A DNA stretch of 64,000 nucleotides from NCBI RefSeq assembly GCF_019670125.1, contig NZ_AP023033.1, positions 504,501 through 568,500 on the forward strand, read 5' to 3'. Both the position numbers and the translations under genes were made by a program. Positions 37,055-58,398 of this stretch are shown in pieces. The first letter of the stretch is position 1. The number at the start of each line of letters is the position of its first letter. The notes beneath the pieces were generated by a model. The model was not told the DNA's origin, made no database searches, and saw nothing but the letters and a program-made list of their open reading frames with translations. This stretch comes from Agarivorans aestuarii. Its GTDB lineage: Bacteria > Pseudomonadota > Gammaproteobacteria > Enterobacterales > Celerinatantimonadaceae.

Positions 37055-37057
<3 letters not shown>

Positions 37058-37110
37058 TCATCGCTCCAGCTATTCATAGAAACTCATGAAGTTTCTTAAA
37101 GCCCGTAAAG
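37055..37110. repeat. Left attachment repeat (att) of the island
   Basis: This 56-bp segment matches 58343-58398 in direct orientation at 54 of 56 positions (differences at 37068/58356 and 37103/58391). It starts at the groEL stop codon. Inside is an inverted pair AGAAACT-CATGA-AGTTTCT (37078-37096): 7-bp arms with a 5-bp spacer, as for a tyrosine-recombinase core site. The integrase gene starts 184 bp to the right. Confidence 0.9.
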
Positions 37111-37130
37111 CATTGCTTTACGGGCTTTTT
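37099..37130 (+). terminator. groEL terminator
   Basis: AAGCCCGTAAAGC, loop ATT, GCTTTACGGGCTT and T-run. The left arm lies in the att repeat and the right arm beyond it. The right-hand repeat at 58389 lacks the second arm, so only the left junction forms a terminator. Confidence 0.85.
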
Positions 37131-37184
37131 TATTCCTTTAGTTATTCAGTTAGTATCATGCTATTTCATAAAGCGTCAAAATTG

Positions 37185-37292
37185 GTGGGGTACAAAGTGG
37201 GGTACAAAGTGGGGTATCGTCTATAGTAGGACTTCAATTTATTTGCTATATTTTTGTAAATACCCCACTTTATACCCCAAAAGTACCCCACC
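37185..37292. repeat. Arm-type repeats upstream of integrase
   Basis: Three direct copies of a 12-bp unit begin at 37185 (GTGGGGTACAAA, GTGGGGTACAAA, then GTGGGGTAT). Three inverted copies of the TACCCCA core follow at 37261, 37273 and 37284, the last ending 3 bp before the integrase start. The arrangement resembles arm-type integrase or excisionase binding sites and would allow autoregulation. Confidence 0.75.
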
Positions 37293-37294
37293 TT

Positions 37295-38485
37295 ATGGCC
37301 TTAACTGCTTTAGAAATCAAGTCAATATCTTGCCCAGAAGGTAAGTCTAGCTCTAAAAAATATGATGCTAATGGATTGTTTTTGTTGGTTAAATCTAGTG
37401 GGTCTAAGCTTTGGCGCTTGCGTTACAAATTCGCTAACAAACACCAAGAAATGGCTTTGGGAAAGTACCCCAATGTCAGTTTAGTTGAAGCAAGGGGCTT
37501 AGCTAAAGATGCTCACCTAATGCTCGCTCAGGGTATTAACCCCATGGACGAAAGGCGTAAAGCGAAAAAGAAGCATAGCTCACCCGAAAAAACGTTTGAG
37601 TGGGTTGCTTTACAATGGTGGGAAAAACAAAGAGAAGCATGGTCCGAAGAGCATGCTAATAGAATAAAGCGTTGGCTAACCCGAGATGCAAAAGAGATAT
37701 GCCAATTAGCCATAGAAGAAGTTGATGCTGGGCACATCACCGAATTGATGCTTTCGATTGAAGCCTCAGGAGCTCCAAAGAAAGCTCCGACCATTTTATC
37801 TGTAGTTAATCGAGTATTCGCTCACGCTTTAGCTCATCGTTTGATTCGAAGTAATCCTGCTCAGGGGTTATCACTAAGAGATATCATCGCACCTTTACCC
37901 AAAGTCAAACATCAAGCCGCTATAACAAACGAGAATGAACTAGGTGCTCTCATCAGGGATATCGACAGCGATCGTTCTAGCGGTTATTGCACGATAGAAG
38001 CATTACGTCTGATTCCAAGGTTATTTTTAAGGCCAAAGGAAATTCGACATTTAAAGTGGTCGTATATAGATTTTGAAAACAAAATTATCCGGATCCCGGC
38101 TGAAAATATGAAGCGAGGGAGAGAGCATTTGGTGCCATTAGCCACGCAAGTGGTTGAGCAACTTAAGAGTATAAGGCTTGTCACTGGATACTCTGAATTT
38201 GTGTTTCCTAGTGAGAGGGATGGCAACAAGCCAATGAGTAAAAACGTAATGACAAATAGGCTTCGGTCTTTAGGTTACTCAGCCGATGTTATCTCTGCGC
38301 ATGGTTTTAGAAGTACAGCATCAACATTACTGCACGAGCAGGGGTGGAAACATGACGTTGTTGAAGTGCAACTTGCTCATCTAATCGGCTCGGCTACTTC
38401 CAGAGCTTATAACCGTGCATTGTATTTGAAGAAGCGAAAAAAAATGATGCAGAAATGGGCGGATTACTTAGATTCACTCAAATAA
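37295..38485 (+). CDS. int: P4-type tyrosine integrase of the island
   Basis: A 396-residue phage-type tyrosine recombinase with an N-terminal DUF4102 arm-binding domain (DANGLFLLVKSSGSKLWRLR, then MALGKYPNVSLVEARGLAKD) and a C-terminal catalytic domain. Catalytic residues are Arg in LRPKEIRHLKW (about residue 246), His-x-x-Arg in SAHGFRSTAS (about 334) and the nucleophile Tyr in SRAYNRALYL (about 372). It is full length and seems intact. No Shine-Dalgarno is visible because inverted arm repeats occupy that place. It is directed away from groEL, into the island, and is expected to recombine the two 56-bp repeats. Confidence 0.93.
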   Translation: MALTALEIKSISCPEGKSSSKKYDANGLFLLVKSSGSKLWRLRYKFANKHQEMALGKYPNVSLVEARGLAKDAHLMLAQGINPMDERRKAKKKHSSPEKTFEWVALQWWEKQREAWSEEHANRIKRWLTRDAKEICQLAIEEVDAGHITELMLSIEASGAPKKAPTILSVVNRVFAHALAHRLIRSNPAQGLSLRDIIAPLPKVKHQAAITNENELGALIRDIDSDRSSGYCTIEALRLIPRLFLRPKEIRHLKWSYIDFENKIIRIPAENMKRGREHLVPLATQVVEQLKSIRLVTGYSEFVFPSERDGNKPMSKNVMTNRLRSLGYSADVISAHGFRSTASTLLHEQGWKHDVVEVQLAHLIGSATSRAYNRALYLKKRKKMMQKWADYLDSLK

Positions 38486-38500
38486 ATCGATGTTTGGGAA

Positions 38501-38526
38501 CTAACCAGTACAATCGTACTGGTTAG
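38501..38526. terminator. Hairpin between integrase and porin
   Basis: CTAACCAGTAC, loop AATC, then the exact complement: an 11-bp perfect stem between the convergent int and kdgM-like genes. It lacks a T-run. Confidence 0.6.
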
Positions 38527-38545
38527 TAACGAGGGGAGTTGTTGC

Positions 38546-39220
38546 TTAGAAGCTGTAGGTGATGCCTACACGGCTTCTTAATTGACGGTCGCTGCTTTTT
38601 GATGATACTGAAACATTACCAAATTCTGCGTATGGGCGAAGATTCCAATCTTTGCCTTTATAGCCAATTTGGAAAAGTAGATCCCAATTCGTATCATCGT
38701 TGTCAAACAGCACTTGGTCATCTAGGCCTTTTTCATAGTTACCTTCCAAGCCAAATTGGAAGTAGTTGTAGTTATAGTTTAGGTTTGCGGTAATTTTACT
38801 TTTTTGTTCTCCGCTTTTGTCCTTCTCATCCGTAAAGCGGCGAAACTCATGGCGATAACGTAACCTTGCTCTTAAACCAGAATCAAATTTGTATTGAACA
38901 CGAAGCTGAGGTTTAAACGTTACGTGACCTGGGAAAAAGGTAATTGGCATGCCTGGGATTAGCATCCATTTCTCATCTATTTTGTATTTATAGCCAAAGT
39001 CAAATTCATTCCCCTTTGACTCCCAGTCAGAAAAAATATGGCCATGTTGCATGGCCTCTACCCCAAAATAATAATTACCTACACCAGCACCTAACTTAAT
39101 ACGACTAGCGTATTTTTCAGTATCGTGTTTATATTCCTGACGAAAGTCTAATGAAGCTGCAGACACGGAACCTGCCGATAATAATAGGGTAGTGATTAGT
39201 GCTATTTTTTTGATTTTCAT
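38546..39220 (-). CDS. kdgM: KdgM-family oligouronide outer-membrane porin
   Basis: A 224-residue outer-membrane beta-barrel with a signal peptide (cleavage near VSA-AS). The mature start LDFRQEYKHD and the repeated alternating strands ending in RSRVGITYSF match the KdgM family, whose members form 12-stranded porins for acidic oligosaccharides such as oligogalacturonates. Many Arg and Lys residues on the strands suit an anionic substrate. It is 34 bp downstream of the secreted lyase gene and probably shares its KdgR-controlled promoter, so it should take up that enzyme's products. Confidence 0.85.
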   Translation of the reverse strand: MKIKKIALITTLLLSAGSVSAASLDFRQEYKHDTEKYASRIKLGAGVGNYYFGVEAMQHGHIFSDWESKGNEFDFGYKYKIDEKWMLIPGMPITFFPGHVTFKPQLRVQYKFDSGLRARLRYRHEFRRFTDEKDKSGEQKSKITANLNYNYNYFQFGLEGNYEKGLDDQVLFDNDDTNWDLLFQIGYKGKDWNLRPYAEFGNVSVSSKSSDRQLRSRVGITYSF

Positions 39221-39254
39221 ACTGTGCTTTCCTTGTACGATTTATATTTATTGG

Positions 39255-40439
39255 TTATTTAAATAATAAATTTTGGATGTTTTTCTGATTGGCTTTGTCT
39301 TTTTTCAGTTCGCTAATAGCGTCTGAAAAAATAGGGTCGTTATAGGCTTTATTTGCAAAAAGCATATTGGTGTAGGCTTTGGAGGCTTGAAATCCTTTTA
39401 GCTCTTTATAGTCCCACTCCTCAGAGGCCATGGCGTATTTAGCTACGTACTGATAACCTTTTTTAAGTGAGTGTTTGTCTACTTCATAATTCCAAACATC
39501 TACACCAACTACATCGCCGTAATGGCCCAACAAGCTATAGGCTTGCAAATTGAAGTTTGAATAGTGCCAAGGCTTGGTGCGCTCTAATTCTGCGTGTTGT
39601 TGGCCGTGCATGTTGAATTGAGTTCCAATTCTTCGCATTTGTGTGACTCTAAGTCGCTTCTTAGCAGTATCTAAGTCACCGGTAAATATCGCAAAAGCGA
39701 CAACTTGAGCGTCGTACCAAGTACCGTGATTGTTATGCCAGTTATCTTCTTCAAAGCCGTTATTGCTGGTGATTAACCAAGTGTTGAACTCTTTAAACCA
39801 GTTATTAATTGCAGTGTATTGTTCGCTTGTTAACTGTGCTTTTAGTATCTCTACACTATCTACCACGCCAATTAGCAGTCGGCTATCAATGATCCCAATG
39901 CCGCGCCCGTCTACAATTCCAGGAATCGCCTGAGCATGATTCAAGTTTGGATTCATGCGAGTTTCTTGATCAATAAACCATGCGTTTAGCTGATCAATCG
40001 CTTTGCTGGCATAGTCGTTTTTGCCAGTGAAGTAATATGCCAAACCAAGGTTAGTTACATCTTTTGTGAAGCGAATAAATCGCTGTTTGTCGGTGGCCGC
40101 TGTTTTTGTAGCCATGTTGTATTCGCCATCACGGCGAATGTAGGGCAGCCCATCTTTTGTATCCGGATTCGGCCACCAGTATGGTCCAAAGCTAAAATAA
40201 TCGTGTGGGTCTCCACTAGCGGGAAGAAGAGTTTTGTTGGTAACAGGGTCTATGTCGGCTTTAAGCGCTTTTTCTGCTTTAGCTATTAATGTGGACAAAG
40301 CCTCAGCTTTATTGTTGAGGTTGTCTTTGTTGTACTCGAGAGCTGCGCTGTCGTAAGTGATGAATTTCGTGTTCTCTGCAAATCCTTGAGAAACATTTAG
40401 TGCACTAAGCATAGTGATTAACATTAATGTTTTTTTCAT
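39255..40439 (-). CDS. Secreted PF05426-type polyuronate lyase
   Basis: A 394-residue enzyme of the alginate_lyase (PF05426) alpha/alpha-toroid type, seen in polysaccharide lyase families such as PL5 and PL38. The signature is DPHDYFSFGPYWWPNPDT, followed by GLPYIRRDGEYN. A catalytic-site NNHGTWYDAQ segment lies near residue 235. The signal peptide (MKKTLMLITMLSALNVSQGFA) follows an ATG with AGGAG six bases upstream; a longer frame from 40490 is not needed. PL38 includes glucuronan and alginate lyases, so the substrate is uncertain. A KdgR-like box lies 34 bp before the start. It probably acts in the periplasm or outside the cell. Confidence 0.82.
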   Translation of the reverse strand: MKKTLMLITMLSALNVSQGFAENTKFITYDSAALEYNKDNLNNKAEALSTLIAKAEKALKADIDPVTNKTLLPASGDPHDYFSFGPYWWPNPDTKDGLPYIRRDGEYNMATKTAATDKQRFIRFTKDVTNLGLAYYFTGKNDYASKAIDQLNAWFIDQETRMNPNLNHAQAIPGIVDGRGIGIIDSRLLIGVVDSVEILKAQLTSEQYTAINNWFKEFNTWLITSNNGFEEDNWHNNHGTWYDAQVVAFAIFTGDLDTAKKRLRVTQMRRIGTQFNMHGQQHAELERTKPWHYSNFNLQAYSLLGHYGDVVGVDVWNYEVDKHSLKKGYQYVAKYAMASEEWDYKELKGFQASKAYTNMLFANKAYNDPIFSDAISELKKDKANQKNIQNLLFK

Positions 40440-40472
40440 GCCTTTCTCCTTATGAACTGTTGTACTGATTAT

Positions 40473-40683: not shown

Positions 40684-41388
40684 TTAGCTTTTGAGTAGTT
40701 TAATAGAAGCGCCGTATTGTTCTAATTTTAATTTTTTTATTTGAACTATAAATAGCTCAGCACATGATAGGGCATCGATTGCCGCCGAGTGAGCTGAGTA
40801 TTCTGGTAGCTTATAATGATTCCTCAAGTCGCCGAGGTAATAACTAGAGTGAAGCCTAGTGCGCCCCGCAAAACTATATTTTTTCTCTATTTCTAAAGTG
40901 TCGAAATAATGACAAGGAAGCTCAGATAGCTGATAGCGTTCCAAAAAGTATTTTTTTAGAAAGCCTTTTTCAATAACAGCGTTGTGGGCAAGAACGACTT
41001 TACCGCGAATGGTATTAAGTAGCTTGTCTATTGCCAAGTCTAGCGGTTGTCCTTTGTCGAGTTGATTGGAGGTTATTCCGTTTACTTCTGCTGTTTTGGC
41101 TTGCACGACCTGTTGATTACAAATGAAAGTTTCACTGGCCGTTGCTAGGTTAATCGACTCTGTGTTGAAGTTAACTGTTCCGATCGACAGCATTTTGTCC
41201 TTACTAAAATCTAAACCGGTAGTCTCGATGTCCAGTGCCACAAACTCTAACTGAGATATTGGCACTGATAAATCAGCCAAAGGCGTTGCCATATATTGTT
41301 GAACACTCTTACTCCAAACCGCGGAGGGGGTGAGTGATCGTCTTAGTTGCTCCATTGGCGGTTGAGATGAATGCTTAAACCACTTCAT
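40684..41388 (-). CDS. DnaQ-like 3'-5' exonuclease, island copy
   Basis: A 234-residue DEDDh exonuclease. ExoI is VALDIETTGLD; ExoII includes VVLAHNAVIEKGFLKKYF; ExoIII is HSAAIDALSCAEL with His and Asp. It is a paralogue of the product of 16469-17101 but clearly diverged, about 24 residues longer, and more AT-rich at the DNA level. It follows the DUF294 gene by 6 bp in the same order as at the acs locus. The role is unknown; the operon carries a perfect KdgR-type box. Confidence 0.85.
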   Translation of the reverse strand: MKWFKHSSQPPMEQLRRSLTPSAVWSKSVQQYMATPLADLSVPISQLEFVALDIETTGLDFSKDKMLSIGTVNFNTESINLATASETFICNQQVVQAKTAEVNGITSNQLDKGQPLDLAIDKLLNTIRGKVVLAHNAVIEKGFLKKYFLERYQLSELPCHYFDTLEIEKKYSFAGRTRLHSSYYLGDLRNHYKLPEYSAHSAAIDALSCAELFIVQIKKLKLEQYGASIKLLKS

Positions 41389-41394
41389 TGTCTC

Positions 41395-43263
41395 TTAGAT
41401 ACCAGCTAGAAATTTTAGTTTGGCGACATCTTGCAATTGACTGATAATTTTGAAAGCTTCTTTAAGGTGTTTACGTTCGAAGCTAGAAAACTCAGACGGA
41501 GATATGTGATTGTCAGGCAGTCCTCCATTTTTTAGTGCATTCAGCTGGTGGCGAAATCTTACTTGTGAAATAAAGCGGTAGGCTTGAATGATGTTATCGC
41601 AACTATCCTGCGATAAGCTTCCTTTTTCGGCGGCATAACGAAAGCGTTCTTCGGTTCCAGTTAGTGAACCTTGCACTTTTAAACTGAAGATTCTGGCTAA
41701 ATCAATAATCAGGTTTAACGCATATTTTTTTATGTTAAGGGTGTTTGAATGTTCACCGCCTCTTTCTAATACCAAACTATTAAAGATGCCTAATGGAGGA
41801 TTAATGGTAATCGCGTCCTTGACTAACGCGACTAGAAAACCTGGGTGGTTTTGTATGTGTTGGTGCATAGCTTGGTGTATTGACTCTACAAGTGTTGGAT
41901 CGCCATAAATTGAGCGAATTTCGAGAAATACACTGATATTCAATAGTTGGTTGTATTCTGGGCTTTTCACCCACTTTCGGTAGTAGTCTTTCCAGCATGA
42001 GATTTTTTGGCACCAACTAGGTGTCGCCGCCATAAACTTTCCGCTACACAGTGGATAACCACAGGCATGTAGGCCGTTACACACTTTCATTGCGAGGTGC
42101 AGGAAGTAAATGCGGTCTTCTTCGCTTGCTTCATCAGCAATAACAATGGCACTGTCTTGATCGGATAATAAGTGAACTTCATTACGGGCATGCGATCCGG
42201 CTACCAACCAGGCATAAGGGCAAGGGGCTGCTCCCAGTACATCTTCAGTTAGTTGAATTATTCGGCGAGTAAAGGCATCCATAATCATAGACATAACATG
42301 CCCTTGAACTTCAGCACTCACCCCGCTTTCAACCAATGCTTGAAAGATGGATTGTTTTTCCCCTTTCAAGCTAGCAAGCCCTTCTATAGACCTTGTATAT
42401 TTAATTTTTTCGATCAGGAAAAGTGATTGAGTTTTATGGTTATGAACAAGGTGTGAGGTAGTCAGTAAGCCTGTGACTTGTTTACCGGTAAGCACCGGTA
42501 AGCAGCGAATATTGTATTGCAGCATTAGGGAAATAGCATGAATGATTTTTTCATCACTTTGAATCAAGGTGGGGTGTTTATTCATGACTAAAGAAATCGC
42601 TTCATTCGTATCTATATCTGCCGCGATGACATTTTTGGTCATGTCACGGTCTGTGACCATGCCAACAATTTCATGTTCCCGCATAATTACTGCGCATGAA
42701 CTTGCTTGTTTACCACACATATGACGCGCTACGTCTTTTATGGGGGTGTCAGCGCTGACAATAGTGATATTTTCGCTGGCGACTTCACTAACATTGCGAT
42801 AAAACAGTGCGGTATCTTCTTTTTTTACCGTGGAATTAATCGCACTATGTAGTCGATTTCTACTTTGTACGGCAAAATAGTCTTTGCATTCAGGATACTC
42901 TTCACACACTCGCTTTAGCTGCTCATGGGGAATTAAGTACAGCAGCGAGTCCTCAATGGCATTAGCTTGATAACCATCTTCCGCTTTAGTCATTGGGTCT
43001 AAGAATGTAAAGCCAAATTGGTCTTCCTCACCTAATTTAGCTTTTAATATGCCAGAGGGAGCGCGTTGCTCAATTGCCCCAGTACGTATTATGTAAAGAA
43101 AGCGCTGTTTGCACAAAGCACTAAATGCAATGCTTTCATTCTTTACTAAGTACCTTACCTGCACCTCCTTGGCTAAACTGTCAACAGCATGTTTGGGCAA
43201 TTTGTCGAAAGGGTCAATATGGCTGATGAATGCGCTTATATTAGGTGAGAGTGTGTTAATCAT
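41395..43263 (-). CDS. cNMP-binding/CBS/DUF294 protein, island copy
   Basis: A 622-residue paralogue of the product of 17110-18909. Domains in order: cyclic-nucleotide-binding-like at about 15-115, a CBS pair at about 170-290 (IKDVARHMCGKQASSCAVI, then GMVTDRDMTKNV), DUF294 nucleotidyltransferase with GSHARNE near residue 353 and DQDSAIVIAD, and the helical C-terminal domain. The first copy reads GSEGRGE, so the second Gly of the motif is Ala and the E is N-E here; activity may differ. The start lies 16 bp from a perfect KdgR box, implying repression by KdgR. No biochemical role is established for the family. Confidence 0.86.
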   Translation of the reverse strand: MINTLSPNISAFISHIDPFDKLPKHAVDSLAKEVQVRYLVKNESIAFSALCKQRFLYIIRTGAIEQRAPSGILKAKLGEEDQFGFTFLDPMTKAEDGYQANAIEDSLLYLIPHEQLKRVCEEYPECKDYFAVQSRNRLHSAINSTVKKEDTALFYRNVSEVASENITIVSADTPIKDVARHMCGKQASSCAVIMREHEIVGMVTDRDMTKNVIAADIDTNEAISLVMNKHPTLIQSDEKIIHAISLMLQYNIRCLPVLTGKQVTGLLTTSHLVHNHKTQSLFLIEKIKYTRSIEGLASLKGEKQSIFQALVESGVSAEVQGHVMSMIMDAFTRRIIQLTEDVLGAAPCPYAWLVAGSHARNEVHLLSDQDSAIVIADEASEEDRIYFLHLAMKVCNGLHACGYPLCSGKFMAATPSWCQKISCWKDYYRKWVKSPEYNQLLNISVFLEIRSIYGDPTLVESIHQAMHQHIQNHPGFLVALVKDAITINPPLGIFNSLVLERGGEHSNTLNIKKYALNLIIDLARIFSLKVQGSLTGTEERFRYAAEKGSLSQDSCDNIIQAYRFISQVRFRHQLNALKNGGLPDNHISPSEFSSFERKHLKEAFKIISQLQDVAKLKFLAGI

Positions 43264-43342: not shown

Positions 43343-44128
43343 TTATTGAATGGGATAGTCCTTAAACCCTAGTTGCTCCGAGATTTTCCTTCCGGCTGAG
43401 TGCAACAGCTTAATGTAGTGAGATTTTTTATTTTCATCAAAGCGAATAGTGGGGAAAGAAATTGATACGCCTGCGATAATATTGCCAAAGCGGTCATATA
43501 CTGGTGCCGCGATACAGCGCAGGCCAGGTTCTTGTTCTTCGTTATCTTCCCCAAAGTGTTGTTGTTTTACCTTGGCCAACTCTTCGATTAGTTGCTCAAC
43601 ATTTTCTAGGGTGTTAGGGGTACTTTTTACAAACTCCACATCTGAAAATGTATGACGAATAAAGTCTTCTTCGCGATTCGATAATAAAACTTTACCGATT
43701 GCTGTGGTGTGGAGTGGGTTTCTGCGACCAACGCGAGAGTGCATTCTTAGTGCGTAACTAGAGTCGATTTTGTGAACATATATGATAGTGCCTTGGTCAA
43801 GAGCTCCTAGGTGAATCGTTTCATTTGTTTCGTCGGATATAATACGCATTTCTTTTTCAGCGATGCTTACTAAGTCAACCCACTCGAGAGATTTTGATCC
43901 TAGCTCAAATAACTTCAGTGTTAATGAATACTTATCTGCTTCGCCCTGTTGTGAGACATACCCAAGCATCTTCATCGTTTGAAGAAAACGGTAAGTGGTA
44001 GCTTTGGACATCATCAAGCGGTGTGATAATTCTGATACACCTATTTCCTTTTGTTCACCTAACATCTCAAGGATATTAAACACCTTAAGAACTGATGATA
44101 CAGCCTCAGGTTGAGTGGATTTGTCCAA
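43343..44128 (-). CDS. kdgR: KdgR, IclR-family repressor of uronate genes
   Basis: A 261-residue IclR-type regulator. By recall it is strikingly similar to Escherichia/Dickeya KdgR along its whole length: SSVLKVFNILEMLGE, the HTH MMSKATTYRFLQTMKMLGYV, IGRRNPL-like VGRRNPLHTTAIGKVLL, and GEDNEEQEPGLRCIAAPVYD. KdgR binds 2-keto-3-deoxygluconate and then releases its operators. The start codon is TTG, with GGGAG six bases upstream. It is divergent from the kduD-type operon. Two KdgR-like palindromes in the 244-bp gap suggest it controls itself and that operon. Confidence 0.93.
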   Translation of the reverse strand: MDKSTQPEAVSSVLKVFNILEMLGEQKEIGVSELSHRLMMSKATTYRFLQTMKMLGYVSQQGEADKYSLTLKLFELGSKSLEWVDLVSIAEKEMRIISDETNETIHLGALDQGTIIYVHKIDSSYALRMHSRVGRRNPLHTTAIGKVLLSNREEDFIRHTFSDVEFVKSTPNTLENVEQLIEELAKVKQQHFGEDNEEQEPGLRCIAAPVYDRFGNIIAGVSISFPTIRFDENKKSHYIKLLHSAGRKISEQLGFKDYPIQ

Positions 44129-44372: not shown

Positions 44373-45134
44373 ATGGTGTTAGAGTCATTTAATCTGCAAG
44401 GAAAAGTAGCAATAGTAACCGGTTGTGATACGGGCTTGGGTCAAGGTATGGCTCTTGGTTTAGCTGAAGCGGGTTGTAAAGTTGTTGGCGTTAATTATGT
44501 TGAGCCTACAGAAACTATTGAAATGATGCGTGCAGCAGGTCATACATTTTTTGATCTGCGAGCAAACCTGCTACAACAAACAGATATTCCATTAGTGATT
44601 GATAAGGCAATTACTGAATTTGGCAAAATAGATATTTTAGTTAACAACGCCGGTATTATTCGCCGTAATGATGCGATTGAGTTCTCAGAGCAAGACTGGG
44701 ACGACGTGATGAATATTAATTCAAAAACTGTTTTCTTTATGTCTCAAGCCGTTGCTAAGCAGTTTATTTCTCAGGGTACTGGTGGAAAAATAATTAATGT
44801 TGCATCTATGCTGTCTTACCAAGGTGGTGTCCGCGTACCTTCTTATACTGCATCTAAAAGTGCAGTGATGGGAATTACTAGGGCGATGGCTAATGAGTGG
44901 GCTCAGTATGACATTAATGTTAATGCCATTGCTCCTGGTTACATGGCCACCAATAATACTCAGGCCTTACGTGAAGACGCTGAGCGGAGCAATGCGATTC
45001 TTGACCGCATTCCAGCCGACCGTTGGGGCACTCCTCAAGATGTTGCTGGTCCATGTGTCTTTCTTGCTTCAGCAGCTGCTGATTATATTAATGGCTATAC
45101 CATCGCTGTTGATGGCGGCTGGTTAGCCCGCTAG
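44373..45134 (+). CDS. kduD: KduD/DhuD-type SDR oxidoreductase
   Basis: A 253-residue short-chain dehydrogenase/reductase. It has the nucleotide-binding VTGCDTGLGQGMALGLAEAG motif, NNAG, and the catalytic Ser and Tyr-x-x-x-Lys (SYTASKSAVMG). It is close to 2-deoxy-D-gluconate 3-dehydrogenase (KduD), which reduces 3-deoxy-D-glycero-2,5-hexodiulosonate to 2-keto-3-deoxygluconate (KDG) with NADH. In streptococci the same step with an RpiB-like isomerase is called DhuD. It is the first gene of a six-gene operon. GAGG lies eight bases before the ATG. Confidence 0.88.
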   Translation: MVLESFNLQGKVAIVTGCDTGLGQGMALGLAEAGCKVVGVNYVEPTETIEMMRAAGHTFFDLRANLLQQTDIPLVIDKAITEFGKIDILVNNAGIIRRNDAIEFSEQDWDDVMNINSKTVFFMSQAVAKQFISQGTGGKIINVASMLSYQGGVRVPSYTASKSAVMGITRAMANEWAQYDINVNAIAPGYMATNNTQALREDAERSNAILDRIPADRWGTPQDVAGPCVFLASAAADYINGYTIAVDGGWLAR

Positions 45135-45153
45135 TCATAGAGGTAGAGTGCAT

Positions 45154-45669
45154 ATGATGAGTTTAGAGATAACTGCGCAAGCATTTGGCCTGCTTAGTTT
45201 TGTGCTAGGTCTTTCTACTTTTTATCAAAAAGACGATAAGAAACTGAAGGTAGTAATGCTCATCTTTAATCTCAATCATGTTGTGCATTACTTGTTGTTG
45301 GGGTCAATTGTTTCGGCTTTAGGGGCATTGCTCTCGGCCGTTAGAACTGCAACAGCTATACATTTTTCATCGAAAAAGTTCGCCTTTATATTCATTGCCA
45401 TCAGTGTCGTTAGTGGGCTGGCCTTGGCTGATAATGTTTGGCAGCTATGGCCAATAGTTGGCACGGTTATTGGCACTTACTCGGTGTTTGTACTCAAAGG
45501 AATCAAGTTACGAATAGGTTTTTTACTGGGAGCCTGTTGCTGGTTAATCAACAACATCCTTGTTGGTTCAATCGGCGGTACATTGTTGGAAATGTCGGTG
45601 ATCATGATGAATACCGTGACAATTTGCCGCTTATACAGAGAACAGCACACCAAGATCGTAGCGAATTAA
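45154..45669 (+). CDS. ygjV: YgjV-type inner-membrane protein
   Basis: A 171-residue protein with about five hydrophobic segments, similar to the YgjV family of inner-membrane proteins (PF10688). The N-terminal AFGLLSFVLGLSTFYQKDDK and the LLGACCWLINNILVGSIGG segment are typical. In E. coli K-12 ygjV lies beside the hexuronate genes uxaC-uxaA, and here it sits between the dehydrogenase and kdgF, so linkage to uronate use is conserved. A metabolite-export or transport role is possible but untested. I chose the ATG at 45154, ten bases after AGAGG, over the GTG at 45148. Confidence 0.75.
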   Translation: MMSLEITAQAFGLLSFVLGLSTFYQKDDKKLKVVMLIFNLNHVVHYLLLGSIVSALGALLSAVRTATAIHFSSKKFAFIFIAISVVSGLALADNVWQLWPIVGTVIGTYSVFVLKGIKLRIGFLLGACCWLINNILVGSIGGTLLEMSVIMMNTVTICRLYREQHTKIVAN

Positions 45670-45680
45670 TAGGTATAAAT

Positions 45681-46001
45681 ATGTTTGTTTACAATAATCA
45701 AATTGAATTAGAAGACTTAGGCGAAGGTGTTTCACGTAAGATTTTGGCACATAGCGACAATATGATGGCCGTAGAGGTGCATTTTGAGAAAGGTGCTATT
45801 GGGGCTATGCATAGTCATCCTCATGAACAGTTAACCTACGTACTATCTGGTGAGTTTGAATTCACAATTGGCGGTGAAACTAAGGTGGTGAAGGCGGGTG
45901 ACACTATGTACAAAGAGCCAAATGTTGAACACGGTTGTGTTTGTCTAGAGGCGGGTATTCTTATCGATAACTTCACCCCTATGCGTAAAGATTTCGTTTA
46001 A
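45681..46001 (+). CDS. kdgF: KdgF cupin, unsaturated uronate-converting enzyme
   Basis: A 106-residue single-domain cupin of the KdgF family, which converts 4,5-unsaturated uronates to the linear ketonised form. The metal motif HSHPHEQLTYVLSGEFEF holds two His and a Glu/Gln ligand. The second motif (EPNVEHG) adds a third His. It acts in the cytoplasm directly after the lyases. It starts with ATG at 45681, eleven bases after the previous stop codon. It is placed between ygjV and the RpiB-like isomerase in the operon. Confidence 0.9.
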   Translation: MFVYNNQIELEDLGEGVSRKILAHSDNMMAVEVHFEKGAIGAMHSHPHEQLTYVLSGEFEFTIGGETKVVKAGDTMYKEPNVEHGCVCLEAGILIDNFTPMRKDFV

Positions 46002-46043
46002 TTATTTTAACTTTTTGAGCATCGTTTGGTGCAGGAGAACTAT

Positions 46044-50674: not shown

Positions 50675-52675
50675 ATGAAATTGAAAAAAGTGGCAGGTAC
50701 AGTGGTGCTTAGTTACTTAGTGGGGGCTTCGTGGGTATCAGCGGCACCTGGCTACAATGGAGGAGGGCCTCTACCTAGTCAATTTGATTTAGTGATTGAT
50801 GCCACCCAACATGGTGTTAATAGTAACGATGGAGTAGACGACTCCGATGCTCTGCAAGCCATTATCGATAATATGGTACCTAATAACCCCGATGCTCTTA
50901 CCTTGATTCAGCTTCCCGCAGGGGAAATTAACCTTAGCGACGAAATTCATGTTGATAAATCCGGCTTGGTTATTCGTGGTGCTGGTAGCGACCCAGTTAG
51001 TGGCACAAAAATCGTTGTTAAATCTTGGTCGCCATATGGGGTTGGAAGTGATAATGCGCCAGATTTTGATAAAAAATATTGGCCTGGTTTTGCTGTGTTT
51101 CGAGTTGAAACTCGCCAGATGCATGCCAAAGAACAGGCCTATGAGGGAAGTATAAACTTTCATTGGAAGCACTCTATTGAGTTTGCCGAAACCGCAAGTA
51201 TTGGCGATACCAGTGTGGTGCTTGAATCCGGTAAGGCTAAAGAGTTTTCTGTTGGTGATTTCATCTATATTGGTGCAGCGAGTGATAAAGCATTTCTCGA
51301 TAAAGGGCAAGTTCCCACGTCGCGACGAAGTGCTACGCATATTATGACCGGTCATATGCGTACTCAGATATTTAAAGTGCTGGAAGTGGATATTAGCTCA
51401 GATGAAGTGACACTTGATCGTCCGCTTGAATTTAACCTTCCGCTAAATAATGAGTCTGGCTATAACAGCAGAGCAATGCCCGTTACTGCCATCCAAAATT
51501 TTGGATTGCAAGATTTCTATTTAACCATGGATACCAGTGGCAGTGCCTGTGAGGGCTATAACACTGCAGCTTACTCACCGCAAAACCCGAATGGCGTGTT
51601 GTATCGTTACGAGAATGTTTGTTCTCAAGATGCTATCCATGGGGTCATTTTAAAGTGGGTACAAAATGGTTGGGTGAAAAACCTAAATATTGAAATGATT
51701 GGATCGCATCCAATTGTGACTGAGTTTGCAAAAGATGTAACGATATCAGATAACAATATTAATGGATCCTGGAATAAAGGTGCCGGGGGGAATGGATATT
51801 TTAGAGGCTCAAAGCTTTACGATAGTTGGATCAAAGACAATACCATCAAAAACATTCGACATTTAGCGCTACAGTGGTCGGCTACGGGTAACATTGTAGA
51901 GAATAACTATCTAAATGAAGATTTGAACTTACATGGTGGCTGGGAGCGCAATAACCTGATCCGTAATAATACTGTTGAAGTACCTTTTGAGCATCGTAGT
52001 TGGTCAAATGGGGCTCCAGAAGCGGGCTCGACATGGCAGCCTATTTGGGTTGGATCAGGTGATCACGCTAGTAAATGGTCTGGGCCAACTGGACCTAACA
52101 ACGTGTTGCTAAATAATACTTTTAAAAAGGCAAAAAGTGCTGGTCAGCCGATAGAAACTTGGGGCTTATTTGATACTCCTAACGTTGAGTACGCTCTAGG
52201 ATGGAATGGTAGTCAGTTTGAACATTTAAATGTTGATGGCGCGCCTATTGCTACTTGGAACCAACTAATTGCTGAAGGGGTATTTGCTCAAATCCCTCAC
52301 TCTGGTGTCAACACCGCTGGGGGATCTTGGCAACGACCTGTTACCGAACCTTCTGAGCCAGAAGAGCCGGTTGACCCTCCGGTAAACGCTGATTGTAGTG
52401 AAGTACTTAGTTATGCTTGGGGTAGCAAGCAAGAACTGATTATTCACGATGGTCTGTGTTTGCAAATAGATCGTCCCTTAGGCGATAAAACAGTGCAAGT
52501 GTGGGATAGTGACACTAACTCTAGCTGTGATTTTCGCGGCATGGTAAGAGCGCTCGATGATACTTCCGAACTGGTTGTGAGCTCTAATTATGTTAGTACT
52601 AAATCTCTTATTGGAAGCCTACTTAGCTTTAATAGTTCAAATGGTTGTAATTATTTAAAATTTAGAGCTTATTAG
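50675..52675 (+). CDS. Secreted beta-helix polysaccharide lyase-like protein
   Basis: A 666-residue protein, with a signal peptide (MKLKKVAGTVVLSYLVGASW, cleavage near VSA-AP) after AAGGAG. The start at 50582 given by the longest frame is not needed. Residues about 30-550 are a pectate-lyase-3-like right-handed beta-helix (FDLVIDATQHGVNSNDGVDD, then SDEIHVDKSGLVIRGAGSD, and many N-x-x-I-x-N rungs such as NNTVEVPFEHRS). A Pro/Glu-rich linker (SEPEEPVDPP, near 560) leads to a C-terminal domain of about 95 residues with four Cys, which I do not recognise. The island context suggests a uronan lyase or related enzyme. The exact PL family is uncertain. Confidence 0.75.
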   Translation: MKLKKVAGTVVLSYLVGASWVSAAPGYNGGGPLPSQFDLVIDATQHGVNSNDGVDDSDALQAIIDNMVPNNPDALTLIQLPAGEINLSDEIHVDKSGLVIRGAGSDPVSGTKIVVKSWSPYGVGSDNAPDFDKKYWPGFAVFRVETRQMHAKEQAYEGSINFHWKHSIEFAETASIGDTSVVLESGKAKEFSVGDFIYIGAASDKAFLDKGQVPTSRRSATHIMTGHMRTQIFKVLEVDISSDEVTLDRPLEFNLPLNNESGYNSRAMPVTAIQNFGLQDFYLTMDTSGSACEGYNTAAYSPQNPNGVLYRYENVCSQDAIHGVILKWVQNGWVKNLNIEMIGSHPIVTEFAKDVTISDNNINGSWNKGAGGNGYFRGSKLYDSWIKDNTIKNIRHLALQWSATGNIVENNYLNEDLNLHGGWERNNLIRNNTVEVPFEHRSWSNGAPEAGSTWQPIWVGSGDHASKWSGPTGPNNVLLNNTFKKAKSAGQPIETWGLFDTPNVEYALGWNGSQFEHLNVDGAPIATWNQLIAEGVFAQIPHSGVNTAGGSWQRPVTEPSEPEEPVDPPVNADCSEVLSYAWGSKQELIIHDGLCLQIDRPLGDKTVQVWDSDTNSSCDFRGMVRALDDTSELVVSSNYVSTKSLIGSLLSFNSSNGCNYLKFRAY

Positions 52676-52905: not shown

Positions 52906-52935
52906 AAATAATTTGTGAGTGAGAAGGAGTTCCAA

Positions 52936-54696
52936 ATGAATATCGATATGCTCGTAGTGGGCGTCTATTTTATCTTCATGATAGCGATAGGGGTCATCTT
53001 CAAACGATTTGCTGGTAGCTCTACTAGTGACTACTTCCGCGGGGGCGGCAAAATGCTTTGGTGGATGGTAGGTTCCACAGCATTTATGACGCAGTTTAGT
53101 GCTTGGACATTTACAGGAGCAGCGGGTAAAGCGTTCACGGATGGCTTCCCTATTATGGTTGTGTTCATGGCCAATGCGTTTGGTTTTTTGCTTTCTTGGT
53201 TGTACTTTTCTTACCGCTTCCGCCAAATGCGGGTGGTGACTCCTATCGAAGGGGTACGCCGTCGTTTTGGCACAACCAATGAACAAGTCTTTACCTGGGC
53301 AACCATGCCAACAAGCATTGTTTACACCGGTATTTGGTTAAATGGTTTAGCGCTGTTTGTTAGTGCAGTATTTAAAATTGATATTGAAACCACCATTGTT
53401 GCCACAGGCTTAATTGTTCTGTTTATTTCGGTGATTGGTGGAGCATGGGGTGTAGTAGCTTCAGATTTTGTACAAATGGTCGTTATCATGGCGGTAACGG
53501 TTGTGTGTGCGGTGGCTGCATTAGTGAAGATTGGTGGTCCATCGAACTTAATTGAGCAATTCCCCGCAGAGAGTATTATACCAGGGATGAACTACCCATT
53601 ACTGTTTATCTCTTGGTTTATCTTCATGTTCGTTAAGCAATTGCAAAACATCAATAACATGCAAGACTCATATCGATTCTTAACTGCTAAAGACTCTGTG
53701 AATGCGCGTAAAGCCGCTTTACTAGCCTTTGTGTTAATGCTAGTGGGTCCAGCGATTTGGTTCCTACCTCCTTGGGTAACCGCAGTTATTTATCCTGATG
53801 CAGCGACAGCGCATGCCGCAGAGTTAGGTAAAAAGCGGCCGATGCGGTGTACTTGGTTTTGTTGAAAAGCGATGCCAGTAGGCATGGTTGGGCTGCTAAT
53901 GTCTGCTGTTTTTGCAGCCACTATGTCATCTATGGATTCAGGCTTAAACCGTAACTCAGGCGTATTTGTACGTAACTTCTATGCGCCTATCATCAACAAA
54001 ACTGCAGATGATAAGAAGTTAATGCGAGTGAGCCAACTAGTGACGCTGGTATTTGGCGTACTGATTATTATGGTGGCACTGTTCATCAACTCCCTACGAG
54101 GCTTAAGCCTATTTGATGCAATGATGTACGTGAGTACCTTATTGCAAATGCCAATTTTGGTGCCGTTATTCTTTGGTATGTTTATCAAGAAAACGCCAGA
54201 TTGGGCGGCATGGGCCACCTTGGTTGTGGGCATGATAGTGTCTTACTTGGTGAGTTTTGTCTTCACGGCAGAAGTGATAAATAACTGGTTAAATCTAGAA
54301 TCGCCATTTACTGGACGTGAAGCGAAAGACTTAAAAGTACTCTTAGGTATTGTGGGTCACTTGGTAATTACAGGCGGGTTCTTCTGTCTTACTACTAAAT
54401 TCTACAAAGCGCCAAAAGCAGAGCGTAGCAAAGAGCTAGCGGCTTTCTGGAATGATGTAGATACCCCAGTGATTGAGGGTGCAGGTCAAGACGAAATGGA
54501 TCGCCAACAGCGTGAGATGTTGGGCAAATTAATCTTGGTATTTGGTGCGCTTGTGAGTGCGATGGTACTGATACCAAATCCATTCTGGGGACGTATGGCC
54601 TTTGTGTTCTGTGGCTTGGTGATTGTTACGGTGGGTAGCTTATTACTAAAAAGCGCTAGAGAACAATCAGCATTAAATCTCAGTACAGCTAAATAA
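52936..54696 (+). pseudogene. Second sodium:solute symporter, frameshifted
   Basis: This is a near copy of the symporter at 48716-50482. Three single-base losses in homopolymers within about 40 bp (A6 to A5 near 53832, T5 to T4 near 53858, A5 to A4 near 53868) shift and then restore the frame; the first causes a stop after about 316 codons. The remainder resumes in frame from about 53872 to the end. An in-frame change near 53577 (codons for MGSG in copy 1 against IPG here) also differs. The last residues are unlike copy 1. The close clustering of three homopolymer losses suggests a sequencing or assembly error; a functional protein is then possible. Confidence 0.8.
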
Positions 54697-54731: not shown

Positions 54732-54762
54732 TTTGTTTCGTGTTGAATCCATAAGTTCTTAG

Positions 54763-54792: not shown

Positions 54793-54817
54793 CAATCACT
54801 TATTAAAAAACCTAATT

Positions 54818-56242
54818 ATGTCGGTATTTATACATCCAAACTTTTTGTTACAAGGGAATACAGCTGAAACGCTTTACCATAGCTACGCTGAGTCAATGCC
54901 TATTATTGATTTCCATAACCATTTAGAGGCTCAGGATATCTGGAACGACTACCAGTACCAAAATATTGCAGATGCTTGGTTGAGTCGCGATCACTATTTA
55001 TGGCGGGCATTACGCAGTAATGGCGTTGATGAGTTCTATATTACTGGAGGGGCGGATGCTTACAGTAAGTTTGAAAAGTGGTGTGAAACAATTCCTTATT
55101 TGGTCGGTAATCCCTTATATCATTGGTGTCATTATGAGCTAAAAAAGTACTTTAATATTGACCTGCTGCTCAACCCCGACAATTGTGATGAAATATGGCG
55201 GCGGTGTAATGATTTATTGCAGTCTAGCTCTCATTCGGTACGGCGTTTACTTATTGACAGTAAAGTAGAACTACTATGTACCACTGACAGTCCTCTTAGT
55301 AACTTGGTTTATCACCAACAACTTGCAGCCTCAGACTATCCTGTTCAGGTGCTACCCACTTTTCGTGCTGATGACTTACTAGCCATTGAGGAACCCAAAT
55401 TGTTTCTTAATATGCTTGAATCATTGAGCCAAGTTAGCGGAGTGGTGATTAGTGATTTTAGTTCTTACCTCAAGGCCATTTATTCCCGTATTGATTATTT
55501 TGCCGCCAATAACTGTCGCTTATCTGATTTGGGCTTAAAGGTTATTGATTTTGCTGAATATTCTTATGCAGACTTAGATGATTCGATAGCCAAACTGATT
55601 GGCGGAGAGAACTTAAGTAAGCTGGCAGAGACACAATTTAAAACTGCTATTTTTCACGCTTTAGGAAAGGCCTGTCATCAGCATGGGTGGTCTATGCAGT
55701 TGCATATTGGAGTGTTGAGTAATGTAAATAAGCGTCGTTGCAATACGTTGGGAAAGGGTACTGGTTTTAGTGTTATAGGTGACAATGCGATCGCTGAAAG
55801 CTTATGTAAGCTACTCAACTTGTTGGAAGAGGATCGCTGTTTACCTCAAACGATTTTGTATAGCCTAAATCCAAAAGATAACGTGGTCTTAGGCTCTATT
55901 ATTGGTGCATTTCAAGACAGTGATGCACAGCCAGGAAAAATCCAATTGGGCGCAGCTTGGTGGTTTAATGATCATCAATCTGGAATTGAAAAGCAGCTTA
56001 AGGATCTTGCTAACTTGGGGGCTCTTGGTCGCTTTGTTGGCATGTTGACAGACTCTAGAAGTGTTTTATCTATGTCGCGGCATGACTACTTTCGTCGCAT
56101 TTTATGCAATCTCTTAGGCGAGTGGATTGATAAAGGATATATGCCTAACGACCAAGCGCTAATTAAGCAAACCGTAGAAAATATTTGTTATAGAAATGCC
56201 AGGCAGTATTTTAATTTTCCACACCGGTTAGGTGATGTATAG
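54818..56242 (+). CDS. uxaC: Uronate isomerase UxaC
   Basis: UxaC interconverts D-glucuronate and D-fructuronate, and D-galacturonate and D-tagaturonate. The 474-residue length matches E. coli UxaC (470). Recognisable motifs are the metal-binding IDFHNHLEAQ, HYLWRALRSNGV, GNPLYHWCHYELKKYF and, near the C-terminus, RFVGMLTDSRSVLSMSRHDY and NICYRNARQYF. The start has no good Shine-Dalgarno. The heparinase-fold gene follows by 9 bp. The next steps (UxuA/UxuB or UxaA/UxaB) are not in the island, so chromosomal copies would be needed. Confidence 0.95.
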   Translation: MSVFIHPNFLLQGNTAETLYHSYAESMPIIDFHNHLEAQDIWNDYQYQNIADAWLSRDHYLWRALRSNGVDEFYITGGADAYSKFEKWCETIPYLVGNPLYHWCHYELKKYFNIDLLLNPDNCDEIWRRCNDLLQSSSHSVRRLLIDSKVELLCTTDSPLSNLVYHQQLAASDYPVQVLPTFRADDLLAIEEPKLFLNMLESLSQVSGVVISDFSSYLKAIYSRIDYFAANNCRLSDLGLKVIDFAEYSYADLDDSIAKLIGGENLSKLAETQFKTAIFHALGKACHQHGWSMQLHIGVLSNVNKRRCNTLGKGTGFSVIGDNAIAESLCKLLNLLEEDRCLPQTILYSLNPKDNVVLGSIIGAFQDSDAQPGKIQLGAAWWFNDHQSGIEKQLKDLANLGALGRFVGMLTDSRSVLSMSRHDYFRRILCNLLGEWIDKGYMPNDQALIKQTVENICYRNARQYFNFPHRLGDV

Positions 56243-56251
56243 GTATTCATT

Positions 56252-58267
56252 ATGTTGCAGTTTACTGAAAAAGAAATGGCGGTTATACGAAAGCATGCAA
56301 ATCAAGAGATCATTGATCAAATTATTGCTGATAACTCTGTAGTACTAGAGTCTGAAACGCTCGTGCCACCAGACGCTAGGGCCACTTGGAATCTATACTA
56401 CTTTTGCCCAAAACACGGTGTGCGCTTAACTTGGGATAGAAATAAGCCAACAGAGCATGTTTGCCCAGTTGATGGTGAAGTATTAACTGGCGAGCCCTAT
56501 GATGGCGCATGGTGGCGCTGGCTGAATGGATTGAATTCGAAAGCTTGCAATGATTTAGGGCTACTTTGGCAAATTACTAAAAACGAACGTTATTTGCATA
56601 AGGTTAGAGAGATCTTATTAGCTTACGCCGAGTTTTACCCTGATTACCAAGAGCATGGAGGGATCCCTTATAATGGTCCTGGTAAAGCCAATGCTCAAAC
56701 CTTGTGCGAGGCAAACTGTAATATCGATTTCGCTCGCGGTTACGATTTTATAAAAGAAGATTTAGATCGTGAAGAACAGCTTTATGTCGAGAAACGCTTA
56801 TTGTTGGAGGGCGCTGAATTTTTAATGCAGCACCGTAGTGACCAACTGCATAATCATGAAATGAAAATTTCAGCGACCATTGGTGTAATCGGTTTAATCA
56901 TCGATAATGAGCAGCTAGTAGAGTTTGCGGTCAATACACCTTATGGCCTTAAATACCAATTAGAAAATGGCGTTAAAGGCGATGGATTGTGGTTTGAAGG
57001 CTCTATTCACTATCATTACTATGCTCTACAAGCCTTGCTTAATTTTGAAAAAATTGCCTGTAAAACTCAGTATTCTCTAAAAGATCAACCTAAGCTCCAG
57101 CTAATGATGGCCTTTCCACTGAAGCTTCTCATCAATACTGGCAACTTCCCTCGATTGAATGACTGTATTGCTGGTCAAGAGAGGCTCACCCATAGTCATA
57201 TATTTGAGTTTGCTTACCGAGAGTACCGAGACCCCCTGTTTGCTTCGGCATTACAAACTATTTATCAAGCAGAAGAGCGTCACAATATTGAGGCTTTACT
57301 CTATGGTGTTGAGGAACTGCCTCCGGCTAAGCCTTTAGCCTGCAACAGTATTCACGCTGAGCAATCTGGTATTACTATCATGCATGATAACACTCGGGAT
57401 AACATGTTATTGGTTAAGCATGCTCCTTATGGCGGGGAACATGATCATTATGACCAACTGGGCCTGATCATAAGCCGCAAAGGGAAAGAAATTTTGCCTG
57501 ACCTTGGTACCACCGGCTATGGGGCTGAATTGCATTACCAATATTACAAAAATACGCTTACCCATAATACCCTGGCCGTTGAGCAAAAAAATCAGCCCCC
57601 AGCCACGCCTAAAGTAAATAAATTTTTGGTAACAGACAAATTTACTTGGTTGGATGTGGAGGTAGATTGGCGCGGAGAGCTGCCTGTTGTAGATAGCCAT
57701 ACTATTGTGCAATGGGATGAAGAGGCGTATCGCGGCCTTAAGTATCGTCGTCAATTGTTATGGCTAGGAGACTTGCTCATTGAGTTTAACGATGTTGATA
57801 ACTCAAAGGGCAGGCAGCTAGATCTAGTTTGGCATGTTCGAGGGAAACACAAACAATTAGATGCCACTCATAAATGTGATAACCCGATGCAGGGACCATT
57901 AGCCAGAATGGTGCAATGCCATCAGCAACAAATTGATGAAAGCTACAAGCTTAGTTACGATATACAAGAACAAACGGCGTTTAATCAGCATATTATAACT
58001 AATAGTTCAGCCAGCTTGGTACGCGGCTATGCGCCTGATAATCCTGCAACCACAGATTTAGCTTACTCTATTGTTCGCTCTGTCGATGAGCATTTTAAAG
58101 TGGCGGTGATCCACGATTTGAGTGAACAAGCTAATATTCAAGTTCAGCAGTTTGTTTGGATCGAGCAAGCTCTTGAGCTGACGCTTGAATATCCAAAACA
58201 TACATTAAGCATCAAGGCAGATATGGAACAAGGTGAGATAGTAGTTAGTAAAGAGTGCAGAGCCTAA
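56252..58267 (+). CDS. Cytoplasmic heparinase II/III-fold oligouronide lyase
   Basis: A 671-residue protein without a signal peptide. N-terminal small domain with a zinc-finger-like segment (YYFCPKHGVRL, then HVCPVDGE) precedes an alpha/alpha-toroid (WWRWLNGLN, DGLWFEGSIHYHYYALQALL) and a C-terminal heparinase II/III beta-domain (GGEHDHYDQLGLI with the metal/active-site His, DLGTTGYG). Layout is similar to exo-acting PL15 enzymes such as Atu3025. The active-site Tyr and His in HYHYY are present. It would split imported oligouronides to unsaturated monomers for KdgF. It follows uxaC by 9 bp and probably shares its message. Confidence 0.82.
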   Translation: MLQFTEKEMAVIRKHANQEIIDQIIADNSVVLESETLVPPDARATWNLYYFCPKHGVRLTWDRNKPTEHVCPVDGEVLTGEPYDGAWWRWLNGLNSKACNDLGLLWQITKNERYLHKVREILLAYAEFYPDYQEHGGIPYNGPGKANAQTLCEANCNIDFARGYDFIKEDLDREEQLYVEKRLLLEGAEFLMQHRSDQLHNHEMKISATIGVIGLIIDNEQLVEFAVNTPYGLKYQLENGVKGDGLWFEGSIHYHYYALQALLNFEKIACKTQYSLKDQPKLQLMMAFPLKLLINTGNFPRLNDCIAGQERLTHSHIFEFAYREYRDPLFASALQTIYQAEERHNIEALLYGVEELPPAKPLACNSIHAEQSGITIMHDNTRDNMLLVKHAPYGGEHDHYDQLGLIISRKGKEILPDLGTTGYGAELHYQYYKNTLTHNTLAVEQKNQPPATPKVNKFLVTDKFTWLDVEVDWRGELPVVDSHTIVQWDEEAYRGLKYRRQLLWLGDLLIEFNDVDNSKGRQLDLVWHVRGKHKQLDATHKCDNPMQGPLARMVQCHQQQIDESYKLSYDIQEQTAFNQHIITNSSASLVRGYAPDNPATTDLAYSIVRSVDEHFKVAVIHDLSEQANIQVQQFVWIEQALELTLEYPKHTLSIKADMEQGEIVVSKECRA

Positions 58268-58342
58268 GCGCTCTCATGAAGTAATATATGATTTTTAGCT
58301 TAGTCAATATTGGGACGGATGTTTAGCATTTGCAGTGACCCT

Positions 58343-58398
58343 TAATCATCGCTCCTGCTATTCATAGAAACTCATGAAGTTTCTTAAAGCTCGTAAAG
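58343..58398. repeat. Right attachment repeat (att) of the island
   Basis: 56-bp direct repeat of 37055-37110 with two differences. The inverted core (AGAAACT, CATGA, AGTTTCT) at 58366-58384 is identical to that in the left copy. The groEL terminator's second arm is absent after it, so this is not simply a copied groEL end. Together with the integrase it bounds a 21.3-kb island. Confidence 0.9.

Follow-up and report, generated by a model that had tools for sequence, protein, structure and literature searches.

Uronic acid polysaccharide genes behind groEL in Agarivorans aestuarii: the probable left part of a larger integrative element with a groEL-associated integrase

Behind groEL in Agarivorans aestuarii, a gene for a P4-type tyrosine integrase is followed by genes for the use of a uronic acid polysaccharide, and the whole set lies between two 56-bp direct repeats, which raises the question of what entered the chromosome here and where it ends. 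We addressed this question in a stretch of 64,000 nucleotides (contig NZ_AP023033.1, positions 504,501 to 568,500 of the forward strand; hereafter the window, in which coordinates are counted from the first base). The window belongs to a genome of 4.69 Mb (G000), and seven genomes of the genus (G000 to G006) were compared. A preliminary description had taken the two repeats as the boundaries of a 21.3-kb island. We consider it quite probable that the window covers only the left ~27 kb of a composite integrative element spanning ~107.6 kb. The last 18 coding nucleotides of groEL would have been its point of entry, by means of a P4-type integrase dedicated to groEL, with the uronan genes as cargo and the right-hand 56-bp repeat as an internal sequence.

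The groEL gene of the host (35399 to 37057, + strand), which is targeted at its 3' end, retains an open reading frame of 552 amino acids, and the integrase gene follows at 37295 to 38485 (+ strand). The P4-type assignment of the preliminary description was borne out, as arm-binding, central, and catalytic domains were all found (Arm-DNA-bind_3, Phage_int_M, and Phage_integrase; PF13356, PF22022, and PF00589). With this protein as the query, we searched 40 relatives and, in overlapping sets, genomes from the order (394), the class (369), and the phylum (398), with matches listed for these three sets if they were beyond 1e-60, 1e-75, and 1e-80, respectively; an extra scan of named genome contigs yielded 12 distant loci. 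The 86 integrase loci examined were the best matches of each search and included all those of at least 50% identity in the resulting tables; 82 gave a tblastn match, and the flanks were mostly 1.5 kb long. groEL was present in the flank of all 15 loci with at least 50% identity to the query and of none of the 67 loci below 50%. These groEL-adjacent integrases represented nine families, with three genomes labeled at the level of the shared phylum only. A tree was built from 77 proteins, since 9 of the 86 loci, including the broken gene of G374, had no long enough open frame; in it, the 14 groEL-adjacent integrases formed a single clade (support, 100/99). The predicted integration at the groEL 3' end by this integrase group is thus strongly supported. 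Within the genus, integrase relatives were located behind groEL in G000, G003 (99% identity), G002 (78%), and G005 (69%), and the best matches in G001, G004, and G006 were distant (E values of 3e-7, 2e-5, and 3e-16, respectively). The integrase matched 185 records of a phage collection and 89 of a plasmid collection at 1e-40, all with less than 60% identity; the best among the eight matches listed per collection reached 37% (phage) and 40% (plasmid). A tRNA gene as the target was rejected, as neither ARAGORN nor Rfam (gathering scores) gave any match in the window.

The ends of the related elements indicate where recombination would take place. The last 18 nucleotides of the groEL frame (37040 to 37057, + strand; MGGMM and stop) recurred with 0 to 3 mismatches as a right-hand copy in 10 integrase-bearing elements and in one remnant that lacks the integrase (G004). 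Behind groEL, this 18-mer was found without mismatch in G003 and G374, with one mismatch in each of G004, G080, G086, G206, and G737, with two in G202, and with three in G000. Both G002 and G005 have another groEL end farther on, at 30.6 kb and 16.9 kb behind groEL, respectively; this second copy included coding bases ((A/G)TGGGCGGCATGATGTAA), a native-looking tail, and a terminator. The 53-kb element of G003 carries the core without mismatch at both ends. The right core of G000 (ATGGGCGACATGATATAG; three mismatches) falls beyond the right edge of the window (extended window coordinate 144609; G000:C1:649,109), and it is from this position that the span of ~107.6 kb was calculated; within the element, no further hit with up to three mismatches was obtained, nor did any arise in 20 shuffles. 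Of 11 right cores, 10 had GGGGTA at −71 to −57; two such sites spaced by 12 bp were present in six of these 10, and G000 has GGGGTA at −70 and −58. On the left, at least two GGGGTA/TACCCC sites were found between groEL and the integrase gene in 11 of the 12 elements counted; in the window, these candidate arm-type sites extend from 37187 to 37289 (GGGGTA at 37187, 37199, and 37211; TACCCC at 37261, 37273, and 37284). We therefore read the 18-mer as the probable recombination core, its copy in groEL as the left attachment site (attL) core, and GGGGTA as a putative integrase arm site. A gene for an AlpA-family excisionase or regulator (58740 to 58943, − strand; PF05930, phrog_66) lies beyond the right-hand 56-bp repeat, and relatives of AlpA were found by tblastn in all 10 elements that have an integrase and both ends, five of them 0.7 to 1.7 kb behind the integrase gene.

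Comparison of the groEL 3' regions of relatives, which the preliminary description had proposed as a check, revealed both empty sites and other cargo. Six of the seven genomes share a block of core genes downstream of groEL, at a distance of 1.2 kb in G006, 2.9 kb in G001, 31 kb in G002, 34 kb in G004, 53 kb in G003, and 108 kb in G000; in G005, this block did not appear in the ~50 kb that were read behind groEL. Because the same block follows groEL after 1.2 to 108 kb, the 3' side of groEL is an insertion hotspot, and the window stops well short of its far side. The right core of G000 has the same placement relative to this block as that of G003. G001 and G006 had a single core copy in the 18 to 19 kb read and no close integrase, and thus represent empty sites. 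G004 was rejected as an empty site, since its right end (core and GGGGTA sites) is present without such an integrase, and was read as a remnant. At 26 of 30 groEL loci, such an integrase was not present in the flank examined.

From the integrase gene to position 58342, G000 and G003 were 99.0 to 100% identical by segment. Outside this block, identity was 94.9% in groEL, ~87% in the core block, and 97.6% in 58399 to 59114. Because the uronan block is 99.0% identical in two species whose neighboring core genes are ~87% identical, it moved recently between species, by the integrase or by recombination, as far as sequence comparison can tell. The core block of G003 was 96% like that of G001 (3 kb compared), yet G001 lacks the element. 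Homologous recombination in a hypervariable region, with the integrase as a passenger, would account for the last spread of the uronan block and for the high identity (98.3%) on the groES side (34573 to 35398), and in G007 and G009 much of the cargo occupies other loci, where the integrase is absent. On the other hand, identity falls from ~99% between the integrase gene and the cargo to 94.9% in groEL and 87% in the core block, and recombination of this kind, though able to account for the last transfer, would leave unexplained the recurrence of the 18-nucleotide ends in several families; we regard this explanation as unlikely.

The 56-bp direct repeats themselves are present as described: 37055 to 37110 and 58343 to 58398 (both + strand) are identical at 54 of 56 positions, the likeness ends immediately outside them (8 of 20 bases upstream and 4 of 20 downstream), and a 26-bp probe allowing two mismatches found only these two sites in the 4.69-Mb genome. 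The left copy begins, as had been stated, with the groEL TAA (37055 to 37057), leaving GroEL whole, and consists of the stop codon, the 3' tail, and half of a terminator hairpin. The right copy likewise corresponds to the groEL stop, the tail, and half of the terminator, and neither the 18-nucleotide core nor GGGGTA was found within 200 bp upstream of it. Because the right copy lacks both and the conserved AlpA gene lies outside the pair, the repeats do not bound the element, and their candidacy as left and right attachment sites (attL and attR) was rejected. The palindrome in the repeat (GAAACT-CATGA-AGTTTC) was also rejected as a crossover site, since what the relatives have in common is the 18-nucleotide coding end. 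The proposed 21.3-kb boundaries therefore did not hold: related elements end on the right at an 18-nucleotide groEL copy, and the block between the repeats is only the left part of an element of ~107.6 kb in G000 or 53 kb in G003.

The right copy is probably an internal fossil of stacked elements. In the simplest account, an element carrying the integrase and uronan genes would have inserted in front of an older element, whose left end would since have decayed to the groEL tail and AlpA. A comparable case is G206: a core, tail, terminator, and GGGGTA/TACCCC sites lie 19 kb behind groEL, and a second integrase of the groEL-type family was not detected. Alternatively, the right copy could be the former working attR of a different, related integrase, the core of which has since been lost; it begins exactly at the stop codon and has the sequence of the genus's own tail type, but GGGGTA is absent from the 200 bp before it and a second integrase of the family was not found in the region, so that this origin appears quite improbable. 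A 21.3-kb island excised by its own integrase at the two repeats is very improbable, because, although the repeats are real and the intervening block is 99% conserved between two species, the right copy has neither the 18-nucleotide core nor the GGGGTA sites that mark almost every other right end, AlpA lies outside, and high identity continues past the right copy to 59114 (97.6%).

For the ~107.6-kb composite element, we propose the following mechanism. The P4-type integrase would recombine the chromosomal core (ATGGGCGGCATGATGTAA) with the same core on the element. Arm sites (GGGGTA) at a fixed spacing from each core would probably be bound by the integrase as well, and AlpA would probably help in excision or regulate it. 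The element side would supply everything beyond the crossover, that is, the last codons, the stop, the 3' tail, and the transcription terminator, and GroEL and its transcript end would therefore stay intact. The tail and hairpin now behind groEL (37058 to 37131, + strand) are accordingly read as having been brought in by the element; a hairpin followed by a T-run tail was seen, upon reading by eye, between groEL and the integrase gene in the 15 groEL-adjacent cases.

Several observations weigh against this picture. A hit with three mismatches, such as the right core of G000, can arise by chance (one was found in G086 beyond the limits of its element, on the minus strand), and because of these three mismatches, the element may be immobile in G000. 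In G080, the groEL end and the right core differ at 5 of 18 positions, which we cannot explain except by later change. G374 lacks GGGGTA ahead of its right core, G470 lacks such sites between groEL and the integrase gene, and of three further members inspected, L168 had GGGGTA-type sites and L169 and L170 did not. G000 and G003 are alike in the left ~22 kb only and differ after 59114; one 1-kb window inside the shared block was 94.8% identical, and the groES side, as mentioned above, is also highly similar. The stacking account requires two deletions, and a homologue of the TrwC relaxase of G005 was not found in the 108 kb of G000. Base composition, which the preliminary description had suggested comparing inside and outside, was indeed lower in GC within the element (41.6% in 37058 to 58342 and 38 to 44% across the element versus 45.5% to its left and 46.2% in the core block to its right), but it is a soft sign only, because the GC content at third codon positions of groEL itself (33.8%) is below that of the cargo (39.3%).

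The cargo behind the integrase gene forms a uronic acid cluster in which lyases, uptake, a regulator, and a route to 2-keto-3-deoxy-6-phosphogluconate (KDPG) are all present. On the − strand are genes for a KdgM-family outer membrane porin (38546 to 39220; PF06178, E value of 4.4e-34), a PL38-like polysaccharide lyase (39255 to 40445; PF05426), an exonuclease-domain (RNase_T) protein (40684 to 41388) with the adjoining cNMP/CBS/DUF294 protein (41395 to 43263), and the IclR-family regulator KdgR (43343 to 44128; NF011671, 438 bits with a cutoff of 275). The solved chains closest to the PL38-like protein, 3nfv and 8bdq, are named alginate lyase, and we take both to be PL38 members. A second exonuclease/DUF294 gene pair is present at 16526 to 18879 and is distant from that at 40684 to 43263 (21 to 22% identity). 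On the + strand follow genes for the dehydrogenase KduD (44373 to 45134; TIGR01832, 419 bits with a cutoff of 339), a YgjV-like inner membrane protein (45148 to 45669; PF10688), a cupin (45657 to 46001; PF07883) that is KdgF-like by context, an isomerase of the RpiB/LacAB family (46041 to 46685; PF02502, PF12408, and NF006753), which presumably acts as DhuI, a PfkB-family kinase (46828 to 47757; PF00294) that by context would phosphorylate 2-keto-3-deoxygluconate (KDG), and a KDPG/KHG aldolase (47769 to 48392; PF01081). An intact sodium:solute symporter (SSS) gene (48716 to 50482, + strand; PF00474) and a second copy split into two frames (52915 to 54696, + strand; a single open frame of 595 amino acids in G003) flank a gene for a 666-amino-acid protein (50675 to 52675, + strand), and are followed by genes for the glucuronate isomerase UxaC (54818 to 56242, + strand; NF002794, 539 bits with a cutoff of 387) and a heparinase II/III-like, PL17-like lyase (56252 to 58267, + strand; PF07940; matching 4nei and other alginate lyases, some of which are named PL17).

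Porin, lyases, symporters, and KdgR would thus be combined with a KdgF/DhuI/KduD/kinase/aldolase route leading to pyruvate and glyceraldehyde-3-phosphate. The route from unsaturated uronate via KDG and KDPG to pyruvate looks complete, with the KdgF, DhuI, and KdgK-like roles assigned by context or from general knowledge. UxuA normally acts downstream of UxaC on glucuronate, and a search for it (PF03786) gave no match anywhere in the G000 genome, whereas the same search was positive in 5 of 14 control genomes. The complete set with full catabolism that had been claimed is consequently confirmed in its gene list and, by inference, in the unsaturated uronate route, but the glucuronate branch is without UxuA genome-wide. 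PL38 enzymes are reported to act on glucuronan or alginate (PMC9029943). Because of this report and of the presence of UxaC and KdgM, our first guess for the substrate is a glucuronic acid-rich polymer, and our second is alginate. The 666-amino-acid protein had no Pfam match above the cutoff (at E values of up to 10, a weak right-handed Beta_helix signal alone) and no sequence match in PDB; a relative with 68% identity in G009 is encoded next to the same lyases and touches Pect-lyase_RHGA_epim below the cutoff, and a new polysaccharide lyase family is possible. In an alignment of 1754 columns, the symporter copies on either side of its gene (48700 to 50446 and 52920 to 54667) were nearly identical, with 9 mismatches and 13 gap columns, and recombination between them could delete or double the intervening segment.

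The cargo is not confined to the element. Relatives of 7 and 6 of the 15 proteins queried were found at other loci in G007 and G009, respectively, two genomes of other genera, and such an integrase was absent from the 39.8 kb and 23.3 kb read there, the latter of which runs to the contig end. Since related genes occur elsewhere without such an integrase, the cargo resembles an ordinary cluster acquired by the element; its presence on a mobile unit, as first described, is supported, with the qualification that much of it also exists in two other genera without the integrase. Among 13 genomes searched, UxaC matches within the seven genomes of the genus were confined to G000 and G003, with more distant relatives in G007 and G008, and relatives of the PL38-like lyase (41 to 44%) were found at other places in G001, G003, and G005.

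Similarity to G003 ends at a rearrangement junction, GGGATATACC (59105 to 59114), behind which G003 carries type I restriction-modification and other genes. The break carries TATACC, and a gene for a serine resolvase comes just behind it in both G003 and G002. In G000, 59103 to 59360 consists of the left half of a resolvase-type site joined at TATACC to an inverted left half-site like that of G002; this inversion-like junction suggests rearrangement by a serine recombinase. A sequence of ~125 bp at 59414 to 59548 recurs elsewhere in G000 and in G002 (91 to 94%) and is perhaps an insertion sequence end or a small repeat. The segment 59581 to 62900 matches a locus at 3.75 Mb of G001 with 89% identity, and thus chromosomal-looking DNA lies inside the element. 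Further to the right (G000:C1:600001-640000; L076 and L077), the element contains a mannan cluster (glycoside hydrolase GH5-type with the carbohydrate-binding module CBM27, GH130, and a LamB porin), to which genes in the remnant of G004 are related. Putative PTS genes are also present behind the junction in G000.

The cargo of related elements, for which selected proteins per element were scanned, was diverse. G002 carries dihydroxyacetone kinase genes, an MIP channel, an IS110-type transposase, and a second tyrosine recombinase. The element of G005 (L069) encodes a TrwC relaxase, a TrwB-type coupling protein, a ThsB-like TIR protein, a thymidylate synthase-like protein, and SLOG proteins, and that of G374 (L152) encodes TrwC, TrwB, and type I modification, pointing to these two groEL elements as mobilizable. 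Homologues of the TrwC or TrwB of G005 were not found in G000, G003, and G002, where only the selected proteins were scanned for other relaxases. G080 carries a MobA-like relaxase, G086 carries type I modification and AAA genes, and G206 carries genes for dynamin-like proteins. The 7.6-kb groEL element of G737 (L155), with AlpA, a primase-like protein, and a terminase small subunit, looks like a phage satellite and is the sole such case among the elements examined. No packaging or capsid-redirecting genes were found among the window proteins scanned with Pfam.

A chaperonin gene as an attachment site is known from mycobacteriophage Bxb1, which integrates in groEL1 by means of a serine integrase and interrupts its target. 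Closer to the present case, staphylococcal islands (SeCISE48 and its relatives) use the 3' end of groEL as their insertion site; the final 18 bp of the gene overlap the attachment site and remain unaltered (PMC8125051), and groEL is among the island integration sites given in a figure legend of PMC5341023. The staphylococcal phage-inducible islands resemble the elements described here in the use of the groEL 3' end, in the integrase adjoining groEL, and in their occurrence in several species; they differ in being phage-packaged satellites of a Firmicute host, whereas here the cargo is mostly catabolic or defensive. The target that had been called unusual is thus uncommon but not unprecedented. 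In the open-access text available to us (subscription papers and preprints were outside the scope), we found no groEL-inserted elements beyond the staphylococcal ones, and in PMC2491623, PMC2764856, PMC3285670, PMC12189769, PMC2972765, and PMC10581047, groEL has other meanings. Among genomic islands and integrative mobilizable elements at protein-coding genes, those at dusA and SGI1 at trmE likewise have an integrase at one end, insert at a gene end, carry variable cargo, and are in some cases mobilizable, but here the target is groEL, and the element is read as resupplying the last codons and terminator. Agarivorans sp. strain B2Z047 shares PL38- and PL17-type lyases; its alginate lyase genes are described as scattered (PMC9029943), whereas here the genes form one cluster with a regulator and UxaC in a putative mobile element.

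Tentatively, and with rather more doubt than confidence, we propose a wider generalization: groEL may be the dedicated dock of an integrase clade present in at least nine families and, by kinship label, in more than one class, the elements of which would rebuild the last codons and terminator of an essential chaperonin operon at an 18-nucleotide gene end that is also used by staphylococcal satellites. This dock would be shared by satellite-like, relaxase-bearing mobilizable, defense, and polysaccharide utilization islands, and cargo may be swapped beside a serine recombinase gene at TATACC sites. The border in the loci examined is sharp, with groEL users at 50% identity or above and nonusers at 45% or below, and target specificity is thus testable by comparing two sequence sets. 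An integrase behind groEL together with an 18-nucleotide core further on would provide a marker for finding defense, mobilizable, and sugar catabolism islands. The locus offers an example of a polysaccharide utilization cluster that recently moved between species, and one in which an essential, highly conserved chaperonin gene would serve as a reusable insertion dock.

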